NCBI GenBank assembly: GCA_003241895.1
Contig: QBLY01000002.1
Location: forward strand, 124,001-188,000
Source: Lysobacteraceae bacterium
GTDB lineage: Bacteria > Pseudomonadota > Gammaproteobacteria > Xanthomonadales > Xanthomonadaceae
Reading direction: 5' to 3'
DNA length: 64,000 nucleotides
Shown here: piece after piece, positions 23,996-34,431 of the stretch
How the letters are laid out: every line of letters begins with the position of its first letter
Numbering within the stretch: the first letter of the stretch is position 1
Program-made: the position numbers and the translations under genes
Notes under the pieces: model-generated
Told to the model about the DNA's origin: nothing
Database searches by the model: none
Seen by the model: only the letters and a program-made list of their open reading frames with translations

Positions 23996-24742
23996 TCAGC
24001 TGACGCGGTCGGCCTTGCGCAGCAGGGCGATCCACTCGCTCTCGCTCTCGCGCGTGTGGGCGGGCAGGCGGTTGGCGGCGCGCAGCGCGTCGGCGGCCAG
24101 AGTCCTGGCTTTTTCGGTATCGCCCCATTCGTGCAGCAGGTTGGCATAGCGGGCGCGGGCTTCAAAGCCGGGGTAGTAGTCCACCAGCACGCCGAATTCC
24201 TCGTGCGCCTTTTCGCGATCGCCCAGCGCGGCCAGGGCGCGCGCGTAGGTGAGATGGGCGGTGGGCGACTTGAAGTCGGGGTTGGCGGCGATCAGGCGGT
24301 CCAGCAGGTCGCGCGCCTCGCCGGCGCGGCCCGTTTCCAGCAGGGCCTTGGCCAGGCGCACCTGGATGTCGGCGTCGCCGGCGTATTGGCCCTGCAGCGC
24401 GCGCTGGTAGTGCGGCACCGCTTCATCGGCGCGGTCGGCCGCCAGCAGGGCATCGGCAAGGCGCAGCTGGTTACCCACCGTGGGCGCCAGCTCGACGGCG
24501 TGGGTGGCATTGCGCAGTTCACGCGTGGGGTCGAACAGCTGGCGCACCTTGCTGCCCACCTTGCGCACGCCGCGGTGCTGGCGCACTTCGGGCAGCCAGA
24601 TGGCGATGCCGTAAACCAGGCTGCCCAGCAGCGGGAACAGGAACAGGATCAGCAGCCAGTAAAGCTCCTGCCGCGTCCGCACCGCATGGATGGCGAAGAA
24701 GACCGCCGCGATGATGTGGAGCCCGATACCGAGAAATTGCAT
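23996..24742 (-). CDS. Membrane-anchored TPR protein
   Basis: 248 aa, function unknown. Residues 1-55 have two membrane segments (GIGLHIIAAVFFAIHAV and LYWLLILFLFPLLGSLVYGIA) in an arrangement like the N-terminal PLDc_N segment of cardiolipin synthases. The rest is a cytosolic tetratricopeptide-repeat domain of about four to five repeats (NQLRLADALLAADRADEAVPHYQRAL, IQVRLAKALLETGRAGEARDLL and others). TPR domains are protein-binding scaffolds. The gene follows a small unknown gene (24796-25140) on the same strand by 53 bp. No catalytic motif is visible. Confidence 0.8.
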   Translation of the reverse strand: MQFLGIGLHIIAAVFFAIHAVRTRQELYWLLILFLFPLLGSLVYGIAIWLPEVRQHRGVRKVGSKVRQLFDPTRELRNATHAVELAPTVGNQLRLADALLAADRADEAVPHYQRALQGQYAGDADIQVRLAKALLETGRAGEARDLLDRLIAANPDFKSPTAHLTYARALAALGDREKAHEEFGVLVDYYPGFEARARYANLLHEWGDTEKARTLAADALRAANRLPAHTRESESEWIALLRKADRVS

Positions 24743-25165: not shown

Positions 25166-25624
25166 CTACAGCATAGGTTCCAGCACATGAACAACAGCGC
25201 TGCCCGACGTCATCCGGCGCAGGAGGGCGAGATTGGAAAGGTGCGCCGCCACCAGCAGCAGGCCGCCCGTGAGAACGATCACGCTGCCCCACAGCGGCCA
25301 CCAGTGCAGGTCGGTGAAGATGCCGGCGCCCATCAGGGCCAGCCCTGGCACCGCCAGCAGGATCGGCCAGGGCCTGCGGTGGAGTACATAGCCATGGCGC
25401 AGGGCCACGAGTGCCAGCCCCAGCGCCATCGCCGCCAACGTCCACTCCAGGTACAGCAGCCAGGCCAGATCAACCGGCCACTGCTGCCGGCGCAGCCACA
25501 GGCCCGGAAACAGAATCAGAACCAGGCCCAGACCGGCGCAATGAACGGCACACAGCGCCGACACCAGCGCACCGGCGCGATCCAGCCAGGGCGAAGGGCC
25601 GCGGATTCTGACTTTCTCGGGCAT
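25166..25624 (-). CDS. MerC-family membrane protein, Zur-controlled
   Basis: 152 aa. Four predicted membrane helices with the metal-binding motif CAVHC (Cys25, Cys29) in the first, as in the MerC family of metal-transport proteins named from mercury resistance. There is no mer operon here. Instead the gene is divergent from a zinc-uptake operon and a Zur-type operator starts 5 bp upstream of its ATG. A role in moving zinc, or another metal under zinc shortage, is the better inference. ATG 25624 is chosen over an upstream in-frame start that would fall inside the operator. Confidence 0.82.
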   Translation of the reverse strand: MPEKVRIRGPSPWLDRAGALVSALCAVHCAGLGLVLILFPGLWLRRQQWPVDLAWLLYLEWTLAAMALGLALVALRHGYVLHRRPWPILLAVPGLALMGAGIFTDLHWWPLWGSVIVLTGGLLLVAAHLSNLALLRRMTSGSAVVHVLEPML

Positions 25625-25629
25625 CGGAG

Positions 25630-25648
25630 TGTTATAACATAACATTAC
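25630..25648. promoter_or_regulatory. Zur-type operator 1 (bidirectional)
   Basis: TGTTATAACATAACATTAC closely matches the gammaproteobacterial Zur box (TGTTATA-N-TATAACATTTC). It is symmetric about 25637. It lies between the divergent MerC-like gene (5 bp away) and the ZrgA operon (24 bp away), so one repressor dimer pair could shut both. Its first 16 bases recur exactly at 30088-30103. Confidence 0.88.
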
Positions 25649-25672
25649 TGTCCGACCCTGAGGAACCCAGCC

Positions 25673-26248
25673 ATGACGTCATCCGCTGGCCTTGCACCGG
25701 TACTTTGGATCGCAGTGGCCCTGTTCTCGCCGGCCTGCCTGGCGCACGGTGCCCATGTGCATGGCGTGGCCAACGTCGAGCTGGTCCGCGAACGCGACTC
25801 CGTGCAGATCCAGCTCACGGCAGACGGCGAAGGCATCGTCGGTTTCGAGCGGGCGCCGCGCGACGCCGCCGAACAGGCGAAGGTGGACGCGGCGCGCAGC
25901 CGCCTTCGCCAAGGTCCTGCCCTGTTCGCGCTGCCCGCCGCGGCAGGCTGTCGCCAAGTCTCGAGCGTGGCCGAGGTTCCCCACGCCGGCGCTGCCGAAG
26001 CGGCCGGGGAATCCGACGACCGCGACCACCACCACGACGACGCCAAGGCCGATGGCCACGCGGACTGGAAAGTGAGCTACGTATTCCGCTGCGTCAGGGG
26101 CGCGGCAGTCGATGGCGTGGATCTCGCCGGACTCTTCGGCGCGTTTCCGGACATCACCCGGGCCGAACTGCAGTGGATCACCGATGACGCGCAGTCAGGC
26201 GCGGAATTGGCGCCAGGCCGCAGCCGGACTGCGCTGGTAGTTCAGTGA
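25673..26248 (+). CDS. ZrgA/DUF2796-type periplasmic zinc-binding protein
   Basis: 191 aa. Signal peptide (LWIAVALFSPACLA), then a mature start HGAHVHG and a His/Asp-rich loop at 116-130 (DDRDHHHDDAKADGH), typical of DUF2796/ZrgA proteins that bind zinc in the periplasm. Followed by an ABC ATPase, an FtsX-type permease and a DUF3299 protein, the same order as the zinc-responsive PA4063-PA4066 operon of Pseudomonas aeruginosa (from memory). The Zur-type operator just upstream supports induction in zinc shortage. ATG 25673 has AGGAA 7 nt upstream. The stop overlaps the GTG of the ATPase gene. Confidence 0.88.
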   Translation: MTSSAGLAPVLWIAVALFSPACLAHGAHVHGVANVELVRERDSVQIQLTADGEGIVGFERAPRDAAEQAKVDAARSRLRQGPALFALPAAAGCRQVSSVAEVPHAGAAEAAGESDDRDHHHDDAKADGHADWKVSYVFRCVRGAAVDGVDLAGLFGAFPDITRAELQWITDDAQSGAELAPGRSRTALVVQ

Positions 26249-26943
26249 GCGCAACGCCCGTCCTCGACATCCAGGACCTGCGTTTCCAGCGCAAGGCACG
26301 CGACTGGCAGCTGGCCCTGGACGCGCTGAGGCTCGCACCGGGTGAATCGGTGTTCCTGCACGGCCCCAGCGGCTCGGGCAAGAGCACCCTGCTCAATCTG
26401 GTCGGAGGCACCTTGGCGCCGCAGCAGGGCCGGCTGATGGTCTGTGGCGCGGACTTCAGCGCCCTGTCGGGAGCCGCGAGGGATCGCCTGCGCGCCGACC
26501 GTCTGGGCATCATCTTCCAACAGTTCAACCTGATGCCGTTCCTTGGAATGGTGGACAACGTGTTGCTGCCTTGCCGGTTTTCCAGGCGCCGCGCGCAGGC
26601 GGCGACATCGCGCTTCGGTTCGCCGGTAAAGGCTGCCCAGGCGCTGCTGGATCGGCTGGGGCTGCGCGAGCAAACCTTTCACGCCGCCCCGGTGGCCGAA
26701 CTTTCCGTTGGCCAGCAGCAGCGGGTTGCCGTGGCCCGCGCGTTGATCGGTGCGCCGGACCTGGTGTTGGCCGATGAGCCCACCTCGGCCCTGGATGCCG
26801 ACACCCGGGAAGATTTCCTACGGCTGCTGTTCGCCGAGTGTAAATCCGCATCGTCGGCGCTTCTGTTCGTCAGCCATGACTTGTCGCTGGCGTCGCGATT
26901 CTCCAGCCAGGCCAGCCTTTCCGGACTGAAGGCGCCGGCATGA
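26245..26943 (+). CDS. ABC transporter ATP-binding protein (LolD/MacB class)
   Basis: 232 aa. Walker A GPSGSGKST, Q-loop FQQFNLMPFLGMVDN, signature LSVGQQQRVAVARAL (Val for the usual Gly in LSGGQ), Walker B LVLADEPTSALD and H-loop FVSHD are all present, so it should be an active ATPase. The class pairs with FtsX-like permeases that do mechanical work across the envelope instead of importing through a classic channel. GTG 26245 overlaps the ZrgA stop (GTGA), and its own stop overlaps the permease start (ATGA), so the three are translationally coupled. Confidence 0.92.
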   Translation: MSATPVLDIQDLRFQRKARDWQLALDALRLAPGESVFLHGPSGSGKSTLLNLVGGTLAPQQGRLMVCGADFSALSGAARDRLRADRLGIIFQQFNLMPFLGMVDNVLLPCRFSRRRAQAATSRFGSPVKAAQALLDRLGLREQTFHAAPVAELSVGQQQRVAVARALIGAPDLVLADEPTSALDADTREDFLRLLFAECKSASSALLFVSHDLSLASRFSSQASLSGLKAPA

Positions 26944-28214
26944 TCGCGCTGCCGCACATCGCGCTGCGCAGCCTGCGCAACCGCGCTTTCACGGCCGTGC
27001 TGACCGTGCTGTCGGTGGCGTTGAGCGTGATGCTGCTGGTGGGGGTGGAGCGCGTGCGCGTGGATACGCGCGAATCCTTCCTGCGCAGCCTCTCGGGGAC
27101 CGACCTGATCGTCGGCGCACGCTCGCATCCGGTTCAACTGCTCCTGTACTCGGTGTTCCGCCTGGGCGAGCCCACCAACAACCTCGATTGGGGCGCCGTC
27201 CAGCGCCTGCAGTCCGATCCGCGCGTTGCCTGGGTGGTGCCCCTGTCGCTGGGCGATTCGCATCGAGGTTTCCGCGTGGTCGGCACCGCACCGGACTACT
27301 TCACCCGCATCGGCTATGCCGGCGGGCGAAATCTCGAGTTCGCGTCGGGGCGCACTTTCCCAGGAGGCACCGGCGATGGCTTATTCGAGACGGTACTGGG
27401 CGCGGACGTGGCGCAGACCCTGCGCTACCGGCTGGGCGACCAGATCGTGCTGGCCCACGGCACCGCCCGCGTGGCCGTGCAAAAGCACGATGACCGGCCG
27501 TTCACCGTGATCGGCGTGCTGGCCCGCAGCGGCACCCCGGCCGACCAGGGCGTGTTCGTTTCGCTGCCCGCCATCGAGGCCATCCACCTGGATTGGCGCG
27601 GTGGTACCCGCATCGCCACTCATGGCGGCGAGGCCGCCATTGATCCGGCTCGGCTCCAGCCCACCAGTGTGTCGGCGCTCTTCGTGGGCCTGAAGGCAAG
27701 GCGCGACACGTTCACGATCCAGCGCGAGGTCAACACGGCCCCGGAAGAGCCGCTGACGGCGATTCTGCCAGGGGTTGCGCTGCAGCAGCTATGGGGCCTT
27801 CTGGGCGGCGTCGAGCGCGCGCTCAAGCTCGCCGCCGCCGCCGTGGTTGCGGCAGCGCTGATGGTGCTGCTGACCACCACCCTGGCCACCTTGAACGAAC
27901 GTCGTCGCGAGATGGCGATACTTCGCTCGGTTGGCGCCGGTCCCCGGCATGTCTTCGGCCTGCTGCTGCTCGAAGCCGGCGGGCTGGCCTTGGCAGGCGG
28001 CCTGGTGGGACTGGTGCTGCTCGAACTGGGGCTTCGCATCGCTGCGCCAGTGCTGCAGGCGAACTACGGCCTCTTCCTGCCGCCGCGTTGGCCCGCGCCG
28101 GACGAACTGCGCCTGGTCGCCGGCGTGCTTGCCGCCGGCGTAGGCGTGGGCCTGCTGCCGGCGATCGTGGCATGGCGGCGATCTGTGCAGGACGGCATGA
28201 CGGTGCGGCAGTGA
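26940..28214 (+). CDS. FtsX-like ABC permease
   Basis: 424 aa with the MacB/LolE layout: one N-terminal helix (FTAVLTVLSVALSVMLLVGV), a periplasmic domain of about 240 residues, then three C-terminal helices (AAAAVVAAALMVLLTTTLATLNERRREMAILRSVGA, LLLLEAGGLALAGGLVGLVLLELG, and a last one). The NERRREMAILRSVGA block is the conserved coupling region. In this operon it presumably acts on the ZrgA-like protein or another periplasmic zinc carrier. The direction and substrate are unproven. Start overlaps the ATPase stop. Confidence 0.9.
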   Translation: MIALPHIALRSLRNRAFTAVLTVLSVALSVMLLVGVERVRVDTRESFLRSLSGTDLIVGARSHPVQLLLYSVFRLGEPTNNLDWGAVQRLQSDPRVAWVVPLSLGDSHRGFRVVGTAPDYFTRIGYAGGRNLEFASGRTFPGGTGDGLFETVLGADVAQTLRYRLGDQIVLAHGTARVAVQKHDDRPFTVIGVLARSGTPADQGVFVSLPAIEAIHLDWRGGTRIATHGGEAAIDPARLQPTSVSALFVGLKARRDTFTIQREVNTAPEEPLTAILPGVALQQLWGLLGGVERALKLAAAAVVAAALMVLLTTTLATLNERRREMAILRSVGAGPRHVFGLLLLEAGGLALAGGLVGLVLLELGLRIAAPVLQANYGLFLPPRWPAPDELRLVAGVLAAGVGVGLLPAIVAWRRSVQDGMTVRQ

Positions 28215-28231
28215 GATTCCCTGGAGCAATG

Positions 28232-28720
28232 ATGAAAATTCTGATGAACGCCTGCCTTGCGGCTTTTTTCGCCGCTGCCTCCGTCGCGCAGGCACAGACG
28301 CCACGCGAGATCGACTGGCTGGAGCTGATGCCGCCGGAGGATCTCAAGGCGCTCGAGGCCATGGGCGAGATCGACCATGGCGGCGTGATGCAGAACGAAG
28401 CGCTGACCAGCACCAAGACGGTGGCGAAAATGAACGGCGCCAAGGGAAAGATTCCGGGCTACATCGTCCCGGTGACCTTCGACGACCGCGGCCACATCAC
28501 CGAACTGTTCCTGGTGCCCTATTTCGGAGCCTGCATCCACTTGCCGCCACCGCCCCCCAATCAAATCATCTACATCAAGCCCAGGAAGGCCCTGCCGCCC
28601 AGCCAGATATGGGACGCCTATTGGGCCATCGGCACCGTTCGGATCGCCAAGACCGAGAACGAGATGGCGCTGTCGTCCTACTCCATGGACTTGGAACGCA
28701 TCGAGATCATCGACGAATAG
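28232..28720 (+). CDS. DUF3299 periplasmic protein
   Basis: 162 aa. Signal peptide (ILMNACLAAFFAAASVAQAQ), then the DUF3299 domain: IDWLELMPPEDL, IPGYIVPVTFDDRG, TELFLVPYFGACIHLPPPPPNQIIY with the conserved Cys-Ile-His. DUF3299 proteins are regular partners of ZrgA-type zinc operons; no reaction is assigned. The CIH site could bind metal. Two ATG codons are adjacent; 28232 has the better distance (5 nt) to GGAG. Last gene of the operon. Confidence 0.85.
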   Translation: MKILMNACLAAFFAAASVAQAQTPREIDWLELMPPEDLKALEAMGEIDHGGVMQNEALTSTKTVAKMNGAKGKIPGYIVPVTFDDRGHITELFLVPYFGACIHLPPPPPNQIIYIKPRKALPPSQIWDAYWAIGTVRIAKTENEMALSSYSMDLERIEIIDE

Positions 28721-28807
28721 AGCGCCGAGTAGCCACTAGGGGCGAGCCCATGGGGACACGCTTCACCCAGAAACGGCCTTGGTTGATCTGCGTACGCCAG
28801 TGTTTCG

Positions 28808-30067
28808 TCATCGGGCCCACCTCGGGAACGGATCGGCAAGGCGCTGCCAGGCCGAGGCGCCGCTCGCCATTTCTGCGTCGGTCAAGAGGCAGATATCCAA
28901 CTGCGCGCGCAATGCCGGCTCGTCGATGCCAATGCCGATCAGGGCCAGCTCCTGCCTTCGGTCTCCCCAGATCGGGTCCCACAGCTTCTGCATCGCAGCG
29001 AACTCGCGTGGATCATCAACATCGCTGGCATCGGGCAGCGGCGCGGTCAGCGGGTCACCGCCGAGGATCGCGGCGTTCTCCAAACCCTCGTCCACGCGGT
29101 CGCGGCTGGCGAACCAGAAGCCGGCGGCCTGGTGCTGCACGGCGCCGCCCACGGTGGAAAGTTCACCCACCCAATCCATCCTGGACGCCAGCCAGAAGAA
29201 GCCCTTGCTGCGCAGTGCGCCGCCCATGCCGCCTTCAACGAACCCAAGCAGGCGGGCCGGATGGAACGGGCGCCTGGCCCGATACACGAAACTGGTGATG
29301 CCGTAAGCCTCGGTTTCCGGCGTGTGTTCGCCGCGCAGCTCCTTCATCCAGCCCGGTGCCAGCTGGGCCTTGATGTAGTCGAACTTGCCCGTGCCCATCA
29401 GCGTGGCCAAGGGCAGCTTGCCGAAACGGGCTTCGTGCAGGGTCGCATCGCGGTTCAGGGCGCGCAGCACCTGCTTGGTCTGGGCGGTCTTCGCAGCGCC
29501 GGCCCGGTCGGTTTTGTTGATCACGATTACATCGGCGAACTCCACCTGATCCGCGAGCAGGTTGACCAGGCCGCGTTCGTCTTCTTCGCCGGCAACCTGA
29601 CCGCGCTCATGCAGCCGCTCGGGCGAGCAGAAGTCGGAGATGAAGGTATCCGCGTCCACCACCGTCACCATGGTGTCGATGACGGCGACGTCCGACAACG
29701 AGAACCCGTCCTCGTCGCGCACCGAGAACGCCGCCGCGACCGGCATCGGCTCGGAGATGCCGGTCGATTCGATCAGCAGATAGTCGAAGCGGCGCTCGTC
29801 GGCGAGGCGCCTGACCTCCTTGCGCAGGTCTTCGCGCAGCGTGCAGCAGATGCAGCCATTGGAAAACTCGATCAACTGTTCCTGGGTGCGGGAAAGCTCT
29901 GCCCCGCCGTCGCGCACCAGCGCGGCGTCGATGTTGATCTCACTCATGTCATTGACGATCACCGCAACCCGCAGGCCCTCGCGGTTGTGCAGGATGTGGT
30001 TGAGCAGGGTGGTCTTGCCGGCGCCCAGGAAGCCGGAAAGCACGGTGACAGGGAGGCGGGAGTTCAT
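28808..30067 (-). CDS. zigA: CobW/COG0523 zinc-chaperone GTPase (ZigA-like)
   Basis: 419 aa. GTPase of the COG0523 family that delivers zinc or related metals to target enzymes during zinc shortage. P-loop GFLGAGKTT at 12-20, metal motif CICC at 71-74, Walker-B-like [11 protein letters not shown] and base-recognition NKTD. A C-terminal CobW_C domain follows ([18 protein letters not shown]). The N-terminal extension in the open frame crosses the operator, so ATG 30067 is used. A second Zur-type operator lies 20 bp upstream. Convergent with the ZrgA operon, 87 bp apart. Confidence 0.92.
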
Positions 30068-30086
30068 CGGGTGCACTCGTCTTGGA

Positions 30087-30103
30087 ATGTTATAACATAA
30101 CAT
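30087..30103. promoter_or_regulatory. Zur-type operator 2 (bidirectional)
   Basis: ATGTTATAACATAACAT, a near-perfect palindrome whose last 16 bases are identical to operator 1 at 25630-25645. It sits 20 bp before the CobW GTPase gene on the minus strand and 27 bp before the GTG of the 82-aa gene on the plus strand. Confidence 0.88.
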
Positions 30104-30129
30104 CCTAATCGCCCCTGAGGAGCCTTGCC

Positions 30130-30378
30130 GTGACCGCACCCCCCGCGCCCCGCGGCGCCATCGTTGTCCCCGATTCCTGGGAGCAATGGCGACACTGCAT
30201 CGAAGTGGACTGCCGGCTGGCGCTCACACCGGCGTTCGTCGCCGAAAGGCGGGCTGAGCTGGCCGACGCCAGCCATTTCCGCACGCGCCAGTTCATCGCG
30301 CTTTACGGCGATGCGCACCGCCTCAACGTGCTGGCGTGGTTCCAACGCGCGGCAGCCCAAGGCGGTGCCGGGACATGA
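30130..30378 (+). CDS. 82-aa protein of unknown function, Zur-controlled
   Basis: 82 aa, not recognised. Starts at GTG 30130 with a strong GAGGAG 7 nt upstream, so expression is well supported. Soluble, Trp- and Arg-rich ([16 protein letters not shown], then [25 protein letters not shown]). Two Cys and two nearby His could bind metal, but no known motif is formed. Its stop overlaps the start of the DUF1826 gene (ATGA), and the Zur-type operator lies just upstream, so it very likely acts in the same zinc response. Confidence 0.72.
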
Positions 30379-31025
30379 CGTCGATGCACGAGGCCACGGC
30401 GCAGGCGGCCGAAACGGACGACGTCGCAAGCCTGGAGCATCTGGCCGAGGTCAGGGCACCCGGCGCCGCGCTGCGCGTGCGGCGGCGACGTCTGGACCCG
30501 GCGATCATCGCTTTCGTCTCGGCGCAGCAGGTGCTGATGCCGCGCCAGCGGCTCTTCACGCTGGGGCATGGCGAGGCGTTGGAGCCGGCGTTGGACGCCC
30601 GGCTGGACCAGTTCCTGGATCGCCGCTGGTTCGGCTATGCCGCCTGGCGCGCGGACCTGTTGGGATTGGTCGCCCTGGCAAGACGGCTGGCCAGCGGGCC
30701 TTCCCTGCGCGTGCGCATCGAAACCGTCGCCAGCAACAGCTGCCGGCTGTTCCACTCCGACCAAGTGGCGCTGCGCATGATCACAACCTACCGCGGACCC
30801 GGCACCGAGTGGTTGCCGGCGTGCGCGGTGGACCCGCAGGCACCTTCACGCCACGACAACCAGCATGTACGCGACATGTCGCGACTGCAGCGGCTGGCGC
30901 CGGGTGACGTGGCGCTGATGAAGGGCGATCGCTACCCCGGGAGCGACAACCCCGGGCTGATGCACCGTTCTCCTCTTGCAGGCCCGGAGCAGCCGCGCAT
31001 CGTGCTGGCCATCGACCTGGACTGA
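30375..31025 (+). CDS. DUF1826 family protein
   Basis: 216 aa. Matches DUF1826: SNSCRLFHSDQVALRMITTYRGPGTEWLP, then a C-terminal stretch DVALMKGDRYPG and MHRSPLAGPEQPRIVLAIDLD. The pattern of H, D and R residues (FHSDQ, MHRSP) suggests a cupin-like or oxygenase-type metal site, but no function is known. DUF1826 genes often neighbour CobW GTPases in Zur regulons. ATG 30375 overlaps the preceding stop. Convergent with the propeller-amidohydrolase, 2 bp apart. Confidence 0.8.
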   Translation: MTSMHEATAQAAETDDVASLEHLAEVRAPGAALRVRRRRLDPAIIAFVSAQQVLMPRQRLFTLGHGEALEPALDARLDQFLDRRWFGYAAWRADLLGLVALARRLASGPSLRVRIETVASNSCRLFHSDQVALRMITTYRGPGTEWLPACAVDPQAPSRHDNQHVRDMSRLQRLAPGDVALMKGDRYPGSDNPGLMHRSPLAGPEQPRIVLAIDLD

Positions 31026-31027
31026 CC

Positions 31028-34000
31028 TCAATGCGCGTGCGCTGCGTTCGATTTCGGGCAGTGGCAGGGCGCCGTGGGGCCGTACTCGATGCCCATCTGC
31101 ACGCCGTTGCCGCTGCGCTGCCAGAAGAACACCGGCGCCGGCCGCTGCTTGCCGCCGATCTCGGCCATGGTGGTGGCGTCGAACAGGCGGCCGTTCACCA
31201 TCACCATCGCGGTGTCGGCGCTGTGCTGGATCTTCTCCAGCGGGTTGCCGTCCACCACCGCCAGGTCGGCGCGCTTGCCTACTTCGATCGAGCCCACTTC
31301 CCTGGCCAGGCCCAGGTAGCCGGCGCCGTCGATGGTGGCGGCGCGCAGCGCTTCCCAGGGCGTGAAGCCGCCCTGGGTGAGCGACCAGATTTCCCAATGC
31401 GGCGCCAGGCCCTGCAGCTGGCCGTGGCCGCCCACCAGGATCGGCGTGCCGTTGTCGCGCAGCTTCTTGGCGGCCTTGGCCACTTCGACGTGGTAGTAGT
31501 CCCAGTCGGGCGCGGTTTCGCGGCGCACGGTCTGGCCGTACAGCGAGTTCTTGGGGAAGAAGCGCAGCAGGCGCTCGTTCTCCCAGACGTTGTCGCGCGC
31601 GTACCAGTAGCGCTCGGCGTTGAGGCCGCCGTAGCTCACCACCAGGGTGGGCGTGTTGCCCACGTCGGTGTTGCGCCACAGTTCGGTCACGTCGCGGTAC
31701 AGCGGCGCCACCGGGATGTTGTGCTCCACGCCGGTAACGCCGTCCACGATCATGGTCATGTTGTGCTGGAAGGTGCTGCCGCCTTCCTCCACCACCAGCA
31801 TGCCCAGCTCGCGCGCGGCCTGGTTGATCTGCTGGCGCTGGTCGCGCCGCGGCTGGTTGTAGCTTTTCACCGAGAAGGCACCGTTCGCCTTCATGCGCCG
31901 CAGGTGGCCGCGCGCATCCTCGATCGAGTTCACCACCGCCTTGAAGTCGCCGTCGGCGCCGTAAAGGATGGTGCCGGTGGAGTAAACGCGTGGGCCCACC
32001 ATGAGGCCGGCCTTCACCAGTTCACTTTGCGAGAACACGAACTCGGTGGTGGCCGACGGGTCGTGCATGGTGGTGATGCCGAAGGCGAGGTTGGCGCTGT
32101 AGGCCCAGTTGGCCTGCGGGATGACGCCTTGGCCGAAGTGCGCCGCATGGGCATGCACGTCCACGATGCCCGGGAAGACGGTCTTGCCGGTGATGTCCAC
32201 TTCGCGCGCGCCGGCCGGGATGGCCACGCTGCCGCGCTTGCCGACCGCGACGATGCGCTCGCCGCTCACCACCACCACGCCGTCCTCGATCACTTCCTGC
32301 GCGCTGTTGGCGTCGCGCATGGTCACCACGCGGCCGCCCACCAGGGCGAAGGTGTCGGTGGGTCGGTCGGTGGGCAGCCGCAGGCCCACTTCAACGCCGG
32401 CATCGGCCTTGCCGCCGGCAAGCGCGCGGCTGTGGTAGCGGTTGCCCACCATCCAGTGCAGCGATTTCGAGTCCGCGCCCCAGTGCAGGTAACTGCCCAT
32501 GTCGGTGCCCAGCGCGGTCACCGGCACGGCCTTGGTGTCCTTGCTGAGCTCGATGCTGCCGCCGGTCATCGGCAGCGGCGCCACGTAGCCGTTGAACAGT
32601 TCGGTGAAGGCCACCGAGCGGCCGTCCGGGCTGATGGCCACGTGGTCCACGTACTTGAGGCTGAAGACTTCGCGCGGCTGCTCGCCGTTGAGGCCGACGC
32701 TCTGCAGCTTCTTTTCCAGGCCACCGCCGGTGAGGAAGTACACGCGCTTGCCGTCGGCCGAGAACTGCGGGTCGGCGCCGTTGCGCGCCACCTGCACGGC
32801 GTCGCCGCCGGCCGCGGGCATCACGAACACGCCGCGCACGCCGCTCCACAGGCTGCCGGTCAGGCCGCCGCCGCCCTGGCGTGAATACACGATGCGGCTG
32901 CCGTCTTGCGAGAAGCGCGGGCCGTAGTAGAAACCGGGCTGCGTGGTAAGCGCGCGCGACTGCCCCGTGGCGAGGTCCATCTCGCGCACGGCGCCCATCT
33001 TCTCGTCCGACCACGTGGTGTAGAGCAGCCTGCGCCCGTCGGCGCTGAAAGCCGGCTGGTACTCGAAGCCCGCCGCGTCCGCGGTCAGGCGCCTGGGTTC
33101 ACCGCCCGGCAGCGTCCTGGTCCACAGCTGGCCCACCGCGTGGAAGACCATCGTCTTGCCGTCGGGGCTGGTGGCCACGTCGCGGATCATCTTCGGGCTG
33201 AACGCGTCGCCGTCGAATGCCTGGTCGAAGCGCAGCGCCGGCATCACCGTCTGCGACACCTCGGCGGTGAAGGGCACCTGGGTGGGCTTGCCGCTGGCCA
33301 TGTCCACGTTCCACAGCTTGCCCTGGGCCCAGATCACCACCGCTTTGGAATCGGACGTCCAGTCGAAGTTGGGGTAGGGGCCGAAGATCGCCCACGCTTC
33401 CTGCTGGTCGTGCGACAGGCCGTCCCACACGGGACGCGATTCACCCGACGCCAGGTCCAGCACGTGCAGCACGGTCTTGTCGCGCACGCGCTTCACGAAC
33501 GCCAGCGACTTGCCGTCGGGCGACGGCTGCGGCCGCACCGCGCCGCCGGCGCTGGACACCACGCTTTCGATCTCGCCGGTTTCGCGGTCGAGGCGGCGGA
33601 TGGCGTAGATCATGTCGTGTACGTTGCGGTTGTATTCGAAGCCGCCGCCCGGGCTCATGTCCTCGGAGAAATAAATGTAGCGGCCGTCGGGCGACAGGGC
33701 CGGCTCGCCCTGGTCCTGCTGGTCGTTCTTGCGCTTGGTCAGCTGCAGGCCGGTGCCGCCGTCGCGGTGGTAGAGCCACAGCTCACCCGCGCCCAGCGAG
33801 CGCTGCGACGTGAAGTGCTTGCGGCCCACCAGGTACTGGCCGTCGGGCGTCCAGGCGGGGTTGTTGAGCAGGCGGAAGTCTTCCTTGGACACGGCGGTGG
33901 CGCCGCTGCCGTCGGCCTTCATGCGCCACAGGTTGTTGCCGCCGCCGCGGTCGGAGGTGAACGCGATTTCCTTGCCGTCGGGCGAGAAGCGCGGCTGGAT

Positions 34001-34270
34001 GTCCCACGACGCGCCGCTGCTAAGGCGCTTGGCGCTGCCGCCTGCCGCCGGCAGCACGTACAGGTCGCCCAGCATCGAGAACACGATCTGGCGGCCGTCG
34101 GGGCTCAGGTCGAGGTCAAGCCAGGTGCCTTCGTCGGTGCTGAAGCGCACCGTCTTGCCCTTGGCGTGCGCGGCATTGACGTCCCATTTGGGCTCCGGGG
34201 CCCCCGCGGCGTTCGCGCCGATGCAAAGCGTGAGGCAAACAGCGAGCGCAAGCGGACGACGGGACGACAT
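31028..34270 (-). CDS. Exported TolB-type propeller/amidohydrolase fusion
   Basis: 1080 aa. Signal peptide (LALAVCLTLCIGANA), then residues about 40-640 made of TolB/WD40-like repeats (LSPDGRQIVFS, FSPDGKEIAFTSDR, LSPDGRYIYFSED, FSADGRRLLYTT and more), then a C-terminal amidohydrolase domain. That domain has PGIVDVHAHAAHFG (HxH) near residue 710 and ILVGGHGQLQG as a later His site. Proteins of this architecture are described only as periplasmic amidohydrolases; the substrate is unknown, perhaps peptides or amides. The C-terminus ends PCHCPKSNAAHAH, a short Cys/His tail. ATG 34270 has GGAG 6 nt upstream. Confidence 0.88.
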   Translation of the reverse strand: MSSRRPLALAVCLTLCIGANAAGAPEPKWDVNAAHAKGKTVRFSTDEGTWLDLDLSPDGRQIVFSMLGDLYVLPAAGGSAKRLSSGASWDIQPRFSPDGKEIAFTSDRGGGNNLWRMKADGSGATAVSKEDFRLLNNPAWTPDGQYLVGRKHFTSQRSLGAGELWLYHRDGGTGLQLTKRKNDQQDQGEPALSPDGRYIYFSEDMSPGGGFEYNRNVHDMIYAIRRLDRETGEIESVVSSAGGAVRPQPSPDGKSLAFVKRVRDKTVLHVLDLASGESRPVWDGLSHDQQEAWAIFGPYPNFDWTSDSKAVVIWAQGKLWNVDMASGKPTQVPFTAEVSQTVMPALRFDQAFDGDAFSPKMIRDVATSPDGKTMVFHAVGQLWTRTLPGGEPRRLTADAAGFEYQPAFSADGRRLLYTTWSDEKMGAVREMDLATGQSRALTTQPGFYYGPRFSQDGSRIVYSRQGGGGLTGSLWSGVRGVFVMPAAGGDAVQVARNGADPQFSADGKRVYFLTGGGLEKKLQSVGLNGEQPREVFSLKYVDHVAISPDGRSVAFTELFNGYVAPLPMTGGSIELSKDTKAVPVTALGTDMGSYLHWGADSKSLHWMVGNRYHSRALAGGKADAGVEVGLRLPTDRPTDTFALVGGRVVTMRDANSAQEVIEDGVVVVSGERIVAVGKRGSVAIPAGAREVDITGKTVFPGIVDVHAHAAHFGQGVIPQANWAYSANLAFGITTMHDPSATTEFVFSQSELVKAGLMVGPRVYSTGTILYGADGDFKAVVNSIEDARGHLRRMKANGAFSVKSYNQPRRDQRQQINQAARELGMLVVEEGGSTFQHNMTMIVDGVTGVEHNIPVAPLYRDVTELWRNTDVGNTPTLVVSYGGLNAERYWYARDNVWENERLLRFFPKNSLYGQTVRRETAPDWDYYHVEVAKAAKKLRDNGTPILVGGHGQLQGLAPHWEIWSLTQGGFTPWEALRAATIDGAGYLGLAREVGSIEVGKRADLAVVDGNPLEKIQHSADTAMVMVNGRLFDATTMAEIGGKQRPAPVFFWQRSGNGVQMGIEYGPTAPCHCPKSNAAHAH

Positions 34271-34431
34271 GGGCAACTCCATTCCAGGGATCCACGGATG
34301 CTAGGCGAAGCGCACTCCCGGCGACCAGGCCGAAGGTCATGGGCGGGCAAAAGCGTGAGCCGGTTGGCGTTATTCAATATCCAATGGGAACAAATGCTTG
34401 CGCCTGCCCCGGACCTGCACGACAGTGGGTG

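Follow-up and report, generated by a model that had tools for sequence, protein, structure and literature searches.

Introduction

How does a bacterium bring zinc across its inner membrane when its genome yields no match to the usual importer? The question is raised by a locus at positions 25166-31025 of a 64,000-nucleotide stretch of DNA from a Lysobacteraceae bacterium (assembly GCA_003241895.1, contig QBLY01000002.1, positions 124,001 to 188,000), hereafter called the window, in which a gene for a MerC-like membrane protein, a zrg operon, a gene for a COG0523 GTPase and a gene for a DUF1826 protein are arranged around two Zur-type boxes. The customary account of zinc uptake in Gram-negative bacteria is ZnuABC together with helpers, and the family sampled here is mostly without a match to ABC-3, the Pfam family of ZnuB-type permeases; the MerC-like membrane protein of the window may act in place of the usual importer. 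On balance we hold it probable, judging by sequence and gene context, that this is a Zur-controlled zinc-uptake locus of two divergons, in which the MerC-like protein would be the likeliest inner-membrane zinc conduit and ZrgA the periplasmic carrier. Sampled genomes, loci and contigs are cited by G, L and C numbers; the window genome (G000) comprises 3,101,527 bases in 53 contigs and is 99.65% complete.

Zur-type boxes and the zur gene

The first-pass annotation had reported one 16-mer at two sites, each between divergent genes, and had equated it with the known gammaproteobacterial Zur box, and all of this holds. The 16-mer TGTTATAACATAACAT was found exactly at 25630-25645 and at 30088-30103 of the window, the open reading frame (ORF) layout places divergent genes around both sites, and with up to three mismatches allowed there were four matches in the window, compared with a mean of 0.01 in 100 shuffles. 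Genome-wide, the 15-base core is exact at only these two places, and the general Zur pattern RTGTTATANNATAACAY is matched with 0 mismatches at boxes 1 and 2 and nowhere else in the 3.1 Mb, so that the genome scan proposed at first pass returned only two perfect boxes. A TGTTATA-N-TATAACA-type palindrome is what we take to be the gammaproteobacterial Zur operator consensus. The site of the Vibrio parahaemolyticus zrg operon, as given in PMC9817125, agrees with this consensus. A chance origin of the boxes was rejected on the shuffle counts, the genome-wide uniqueness and a dinucleotide-shuffle control.

Box 1 (GTGTTATAACATAACAT, 25629..25645, no strand assigned) lies between the merC-like gene and zrgA, directly upstream of the likely merC-like start and 27 bases ahead of zrgA. 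The longest merC-like frame opens inside this box, at 25645; because the box covers the first codons of that frame, ATG 25624 is the likely start. Box 2 (ATGTTATAACATAACAT, 30087..30103, no strand assigned) lies between the COG0523 gene, of which it is 19 bases ahead, and the pair formed by an 82-aa gene, 26 bases away, and the DUF1826 gene. A repressor seated at each box would probably block both flanking divergent promoters.

Two FUR-family matches were found in the window genome. The scan for zur, also proposed at first pass, located the gene on contig C2; it encodes 162 aa, and its closest PDB entries are 7dh7 (2e-68) and then 4mtd (1e-32), the latter entered as a zinc uptake regulation protein. 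A third Zur-like site, ATGTTATATTGTTTCAT, with 3 mismatches to the pattern, is located on the same contig about 3.4 kb from zur, and further 3-mismatch matches occur elsewhere in the genome, one of them on contig C11. Because both boxes and a zur gene are present, we infer two divergons, each of which would be repressed by zinc-loaded Zur at one operator.

MerC-like genes across the family

MerC-type genes (PF03203) were found in all 119 sampled genomes of the Lysobacteraceae/Xanthomonadaceae (54 genera), and family-wide they are strongly linked to Zur-like boxes. In a scan that reached 300 bases upstream from the CxxHC codons, 118 of 129 merC-like genes had a Zur-like box with at most 4 mismatches, 80 one with at most 3 and 48 one with at most 2, most boxes lying about 85-130 bases ahead of the CxxHC motif. 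At the 4-mismatch threshold, boxes occurred in 11 of 1,913 control windows of the same loci, drawn from anywhere in them, coding sequence included, and in 45 of 2,580 dinucleotide shuffles, which keep the composition of the upstream stretches. The 129 genes, which are part of the family's MerC matches, come from 131 loci (130 plus the window locus); L228 and L230 had no MerC-like match, and L116 was too short. Three weak matches (L147, L214 and the second of L222) are counted, all as misses. The 11 misses include these three as well as five genes (L146, L159, L163, L184, L185) that adjoin an ABC-3 permease gene, and three of the five still show the palindrome GTTACAATGTAAC at the usual place.

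The neighbours of these genes fall into several kinds. Within 1 kb of 93 of the 115 CAxHC-type genes, and of none of the 12 CLxHC genes, there is a divergent gene for a TonB receptor related to one on contig C2 of the window genome. The latter (L074:5745-7844, minus strand) faces a second merC-like gene (L074:7859-8332, plus strand); the receptor has a His/Glu-rich loop, and ATGTTATATTGTTTCAT lies between the two genes. A closely similar site is found at the merC-like gene of the congener G116, which has no zrgA match. The CLxHC genes (L130, L132, L143, L148, L149, L232-L234, L236-L239) form a second MerC-like group on one side of a branch with a support of 95 in the Shimodaira-Hasegawa-like approximate likelihood ratio test (SH-aLRT); they have no TonB neighbour, and 10 of the 12 have a box with at most 3 mismatches.

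Regarding the zrgA loci, a merC-like gene is divergent and upstream at 24 of 40, a box with at most 3 mismatches lies within 350 bp upstream at 28, and both features are present at 19; the corresponding count for control windows is 12 of 1,534. The 40 loci are the window and those of 39 of the 41 other zrgA-positive genomes of the order (G085 and G134 left out), and they include the weak zrgA calls L104, L112 and L113. Five more zrgA loci (L080, L093, L094, L096, L098) have a 3-mismatch box at the edge of the scanned stretch.

Sampling at the level of the class added 28 new loci, of which L353, L354 and L360 gave no match to the MerC hidden Markov model. Also beyond the order, a perfect box is found at a gene of Pseudoalteromonas that encodes a MerC domain; the adjoining gene for a TonB receptor has a separate box with 2 mismatches.

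Zinc importers

The proposed scan for znuABC came back empty in the window genome, which gave no match to ZnuA, ZnuB or ZIP (NRAMP, PitA and ZntB were not searched). In the order sample, all 25 family genomes came out without ZnuA. ABC-3 matches occur in 14 of the 119 family genomes, the best at 1e-17 and none strong, and 105 are without one; the match in G013 was judged spurious. In 10 of the remaining 13 (G152, G160, G169, G180, G181, G209, G223, G230, G234, G240) the merC-like gene has, as its immediate neighbour on the same strand, the gene for a divergent type of ABC-3 permease, which suggests an operon of the merC-like gene with a ZnuB-type unit in those ten genomes; in G183 the distance is 3.5 kb. 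ZIP scored above the cut-off in 43 of the 119 genomes and not in the other 76.

The MerC-like protein

The merC-like gene of the window (25166..25624, minus strand) encodes a membrane protein of 152 aa (Pfam MerC PF03203, 62.3 bits, 7e-17). It carries CAVHC, a motif of the CxxHC type, in the first of the four long helices of its predicted model (predicted local distance difference test score, pLDDT, 78.7). A fold search with this model against solved structures gave 0 matches at E<=0.001 and 44 at E<=10, none convincing. In an alignment of 24 MerC-like proteins including that of the window, the invariant residues (numbered after L172) are D11, R12, G14, C21, A22, H24, C25, P36, H71, G83, H97, G111 and H118.

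A mercury-resistance identity of this gene was rejected on its motif, tree position, NCBI models and neighbours. In a quick tree (SH-aLRT support only, TonB-linked rows sampled), 8 mer-type MerC sequences with CAxCF and 102 CxxHC rows lie on opposite sides of a branch with an SH-aLRT of 100; the groups were labelled by hand, and L181 is labelled as ABC3-linked though its ABC-3 gene is 3.5 kb away. One of the mer-type genes, L349, adjoins MerR-, MerT- and MerP-like genes, read by eye, and the remaining seven were assigned by motif alone. The protein of L349 passes both NCBI MerC equivalog models (233 vs 170 and 200.6 vs 140 bits), the second MerC-like protein of the window genome misses both cut-offs (22.3 vs 140 and 18.6 vs 170 bits), and the window protein gets no match to them. 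A box better than 5 mismatches was found at none of the 8 mer-type MerC genes of the class loci. The neighbours of the window gene are zrgA on one side and, on the other, a 132-aa ORF without a Pfam family and a TPR-domain gene (23996-24742); no mer genes were seen among the neighbours examined, the rest of the genome not having been searched.

Within the CxxHC side, the window protein falls, with an SH-aLRT of 89, among zrgA-linked MerC-like proteins from a different family of the order, and three sampled members of its own genus (G075, G116, G121) have no ZrgA match; on these two grounds, the zrg/merC-like cluster may have arrived as a unit.

Proposed function of the locus

Under the proposed mechanism, zinc-loaded Zur would close both operators and would leave them as zinc falls. 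The first divergon would then supply ZrgA, the FtsX-type ABC motor with its DUF3299 partner, and the MerC-like protein, and the second the COG0523 metallochaperone-type GTPase, the 82-aa protein and the DUF1826 protein. ZrgA would gather periplasmic zinc, which most likely would cross the inner membrane via the conserved Cys and His residues of the MerC-like protein; the ATP-driven FtsX permease would more likely move zinc between periplasmic partners than be a pore itself. A basal zinc route is probably provided by the second merC-like gene, the one opposite the TonB receptor gene close to zur. We infer not only repression but also zinc as the cargo, the direction of transport and the roles of the parts.

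The MerC-like protein is put forward as the likeliest conduit for three reasons: PMC12193353 gives the MerC of mer operons a part in the passage of Hg(II) to the cytoplasm, PMC11481552 characterizes MacB/FtsX-type proteins as mechanotransmitters, and the gene is universal in a sample in which ZnuB-type permeases are rare. We extend this to the family tentatively, at a little below an even chance: in the Lysobacteraceae (Xanthomonadaceae), the CxxHC MerC clade would be the main importer of zinc across the inner membrane, controlled by Zur, replacing ZnuABC and pairing either with a TonB receptor, as a short zinc route, or with ZrgA. The second pairing would mirror the relay of mercury from MerP to MerT/MerC, MerP being the mercury carrier and hence the parallel of ZrgA as a zinc carrier.

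Several observations weigh against a zinc-importing MerC-like clade. The family counts come from related genomes, which are not independent samples, and the argument rests on these counts and not on p-values. Outside the order, only 3 of 16 CxxHC genes of the class loci (L336, L337, L339) have a box clearly better than the local control, to which the Pseudoalteromonas gene can be added. At the level of the class, no association of MerC with the absence of ABC-3 was seen: ABC-3 is found in 29 of the 48 MerC-positive genomes (those above the cut-off) vs 185 of 274 overall (2x2 table, Fisher p 0.31), and an anti-correlation of MerC with ZnuB across the class was accordingly discarded. The window protein is without the PHA histidine and the His/Cys-rich tail of its TonB-linked relatives, and the organism may have other zinc carriers (NRAMP, PitA, ZntB). 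Finally, there is Xanthomonas campestris, which we take to belong to the sampled family. For this species, a review table (PMC6103462) enters znuABC together with two TonB receptors and one COG0523 gene, and the znuABC listing conflicts with the rarity of ZnuB-type matches in our sample.

One alternative we consider doubtful and yet a serious contender: the MerC-like protein may be a Zur-regulated accessory, such as a sensor, a partner of the TonB receptor or an importer of another metal, e.g., cobalt, with zinc entering by other carriers. The role as a transporter rests on sequence and gene context, MerC and ABC-3 co-occur freely in the class-level sample, and in the ten genomes with a merC-like gene directly beside an ABC-3 permease gene the former could be the accessory of the latter. 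An accessory is, however, harder to reconcile with the presence of the gene in 119 of 119 family genomes, 105 of them without an ABC-3 match and 76 without ZIP above the cut-off, and with the part ascribed to mer-operon MerC in the entry of Hg(II) to the cytoplasm (PMC12193353).

The Zrg operon

The order ZrgA, ATPase, FtsX permease, DUF3299 had been compared at first pass with that of PA4063-4066 of Pseudomonas aeruginosa; Pfam and PDB matches confirm the comparison, and the system is of the known kind of PA4063-4066 and ZrgABCDE, with the ATPase, MacB/FtsX-type permease and DUF3299 genes adjacent to zrgA as in those operons. All four genes are on the plus strand. They encode a predicted ZrgA-family periplasmic zinc-binding protein (25673..26248, 191 aa; Pfam ZrgA PF10986, 153 bits vs a cut-off of 27.4, 9e-45), an ABC ATPase resembling LolD, FtsE and MacB (26245..26943, 232 aa; Pfam ABC_tran, 6.5e-28), an FtsX/MacB-type permease with a large periplasmic domain (26940..28214, 424 aa; Pfam MacB_PCD and FtsX) and a DUF3299 protein of the ZrgE/PA4066 type (28229..28720, 163 aa; Pfam 1.5e-39; 7e-28 to PDB 4hsp, which we take to be PA4066). 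The nearest NCBIfam models of the ATPase are DevA, LolD and FtsE, with none above its cut-off among the best 25 matches listed. In the DUF3299 protein the stretch G-A-C-I-H-x-P-P-P-P-x-N is invariant or nearly so (33 sequences).

ZrgA of the window matches PDB 7ahw (PA4063, 5e-21) and 8ezw (Vibrio cholerae ZrgA, 4e-10) and does not reach the cut-off of the NCBI equivalog NF047873 (102.5 vs 185 bits); on these scores it is a member of the Pfam family outside NCBI's narrower ZrgA group. The sole residues invariant or near-invariant (95%) among 29 ZrgA sequences are H28, H30, G31, E59, C93 and H129, of which H28, H30 and E59 are fully invariant and H129 is near-invariant. The three former align with the HxHG and GFE stretches of 8ezw, read as His35, His37 and Glu66, and by this alignment the window protein keeps the ligands of zinc site 1, the only ZrgA zinc site that PMC9820375, which describes the fold as ferredoxin-like, regards as widely conserved in the ZrgA family. 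H129 plausibly corresponds to the predicted His184, a residue absent from the solved construct. ZrgD (DUF2607) had no match among the nine ORFs scanned at the window locus; this is not decisive, because V. fischeri and P. profundum are likewise without ZrgD (PMC9817125).

In the permease, H173, H183, D202 and H216 are identical in 38 of 38 zrg-locus permeases; 5 of 5 distant permeases, four of which are encoded next to alkaline phosphatase genes, keep them too, and as a mark of zinc handling by Zrg they were dropped as not specific. The AlphaFold model of the permease alone had a pLDDT of 43 and was not used.

The zrg gene order recurs on three Rhodobacterales plasmids examined (L361, L362, L363). 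In L361 it is next to a Fur-family gene. The Pseudooceanicola algae plasmid p111 (L362:1-8254) has a complete zrg operon with two DUF3299 genes, and in the same run znuA, two genes for GTP-binding proteins, DUF1826 and DUF6525. Two DUF3299 genes in tandem follow the permease gene in L084, L085, L089, L093-L096, L098, L362 and L363. A Ruegeria conchae plasmid (L365:1170-5070) carries a DUF3299 system that comprises an adaptor of the HlyD type, an ATPase and a permease and has no annotated ZrgA, possibly a tripartite variant. FtsX-type ABC pairs related to the zrg permease adjoin alkaline phosphatase genes in L366, L367, L368 and L369; in L368 and L369 a small neighbouring protein without a Pfam match is DUF3299-like by eye, with CPFC replacing CIH, and L369 also carries a gene for a PCu(A)C copper chaperone.

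The ABC system itself has been read in two ways, as a zinc importer in Vibrio (PMC9817125, PMC9820375) and as a MacB-type exporter of pyochelin-cobalt in the case of P. aeruginosa PA4063-4066 (PMC11481552). A search for the condensation domain of non-ribosomal peptide synthetases (NRPS) covered 40 of the 42 zrgA-positive genomes (G085 and G097 left out); in 24 of the 40 none was above the cut-off, the window genome with its one match below the cut-off included, and pyochelin export is therefore unlikely as the general role of Zrg.

It is rather unlikely, in our estimate, that the FtsX-type ABC system is purely periplasmic and metallates or strips periplasmic metalloproteins with no transmembrane transport. 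Such a role would suit the alkaline phosphatase genes beside four related ABC pairs, one of them also with the PCu(A)C gene, and the four permease residues kept in all zrg and distant permeases, but the phosphatase linkage consists of four loci picked from one listing, and Vibrio Zrg aids growth under zinc chelation alongside ZnuABC, which suggests net supply (PMC9817125, PMC9820375). Improbable, finally, is the export of a metal-loaded small molecule in the manner of MacB, through which the locus would manage cobalt and not import zinc: the MacB_PCD and FtsX domains of the permease, the genetics and metal contents of P. aeruginosa (PMC11481552) and the HlyD-type adaptor gene beside the Ruegeria ABC pair would fit, but by the NRPS counts pyochelin is no general cargo, no adaptor gene lies within the window operon, and loss of zrgA in Vibrio hampers growth under zinc starvation (PMC9817125, PMC9820375).

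Remaining genes of the locus

The gene content listed at first pass is borne out by Pfam throughout (MerC, ZrgA, ABC_tran, MacB_PCD with FtsX, DUF3299, cobW with CobW_C, DUF1826). In the second divergon, the COG0523 (CobW/ZigA-like) GTPase (28808..30067, minus strand, 419 aa) belongs to the CobW family by Pfam (cobW 4e-55, and CobW_C) and stays below the cut-off of the NCBIfam ZigA equivalog (567.2 vs 600 bits). Opposite to it lie the gene of the 82-aa protein (30130..30378, plus strand, GTG start) and that of the DUF1826 protein (30375..31025, plus strand, 216 aa; Pfam 1e-41). The 82-aa protein has no family assignment, with no match in Pfam or NCBIfam; its relatives, found by tblastn, adjoin zrgA in three other loci (L084, L085, L091). 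The locus is bordered at 31028-34282 (minus strand) by a gene whose 1084-aa product combines PD40 repeats with an amidohydrolase domain.

Novelty and significance

By itself, the locus adds one member to a known kind of system. What is new is the group to which its MerC-like gene, hardly remarked on at first pass, belongs: this group occurs in every sampled genome of the family, its genes mostly have Zur-like boxes upstream, and on sequence grounds it is the best present candidate for an inner-membrane zinc importer there. A literature search on MerC with Zur or zinc gave, among the matches listed, no paper whose title or abstract connects a MerC-like gene with Zur. If zinc import is true, a family that owes its name to mercury resistance includes a branch for a nutrient metal, and zinc handling by the FtsX-type Zrg system becomes testable in a host without ZnuABC.

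Comparison with known systems

The closest known system is ZrgABCDE of V. cholerae and V. parahaemolyticus, described as ZrgA, ATPase, MacB-like permease and DUF3299 in one operon with a Zur box, as in the window (PMC9817125, PMC9820375). The window differs in the merC-like gene that is divergent on the same box, and whereas V. cholerae also has ZnuABC, the window genome is without a ZnuA or ZnuB match. With PA4063-PA4066 of P. aeruginosa the kinds of genes are shared (ZrgA 5e-21 to 7ahw, DUF3299 7e-28 to 4hsp). That system is described as a pyochelin-cobalt exporter (PMC11481552), whereas in the window genome the one NRPS condensation-domain match stays below the cut-off. DUF1826 is named in a figure legend of PMC2770081 on gene clusters with Zur-regulated COG0523 members, and the window locus likewise pairs a COG0523 GTPase with DUF1826; in the window, however, the 82-aa protein of no family heads the DUF1826 transcript. 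The MerC of mer operons and the window protein have the Pfam family PF03203 in common. The former carries CAxCF, whereas the latter is of the CxxHC type, has no NCBI MerC match and falls on the other side of the tree, and its gene differs further by the Zur-type box that lies upstream.

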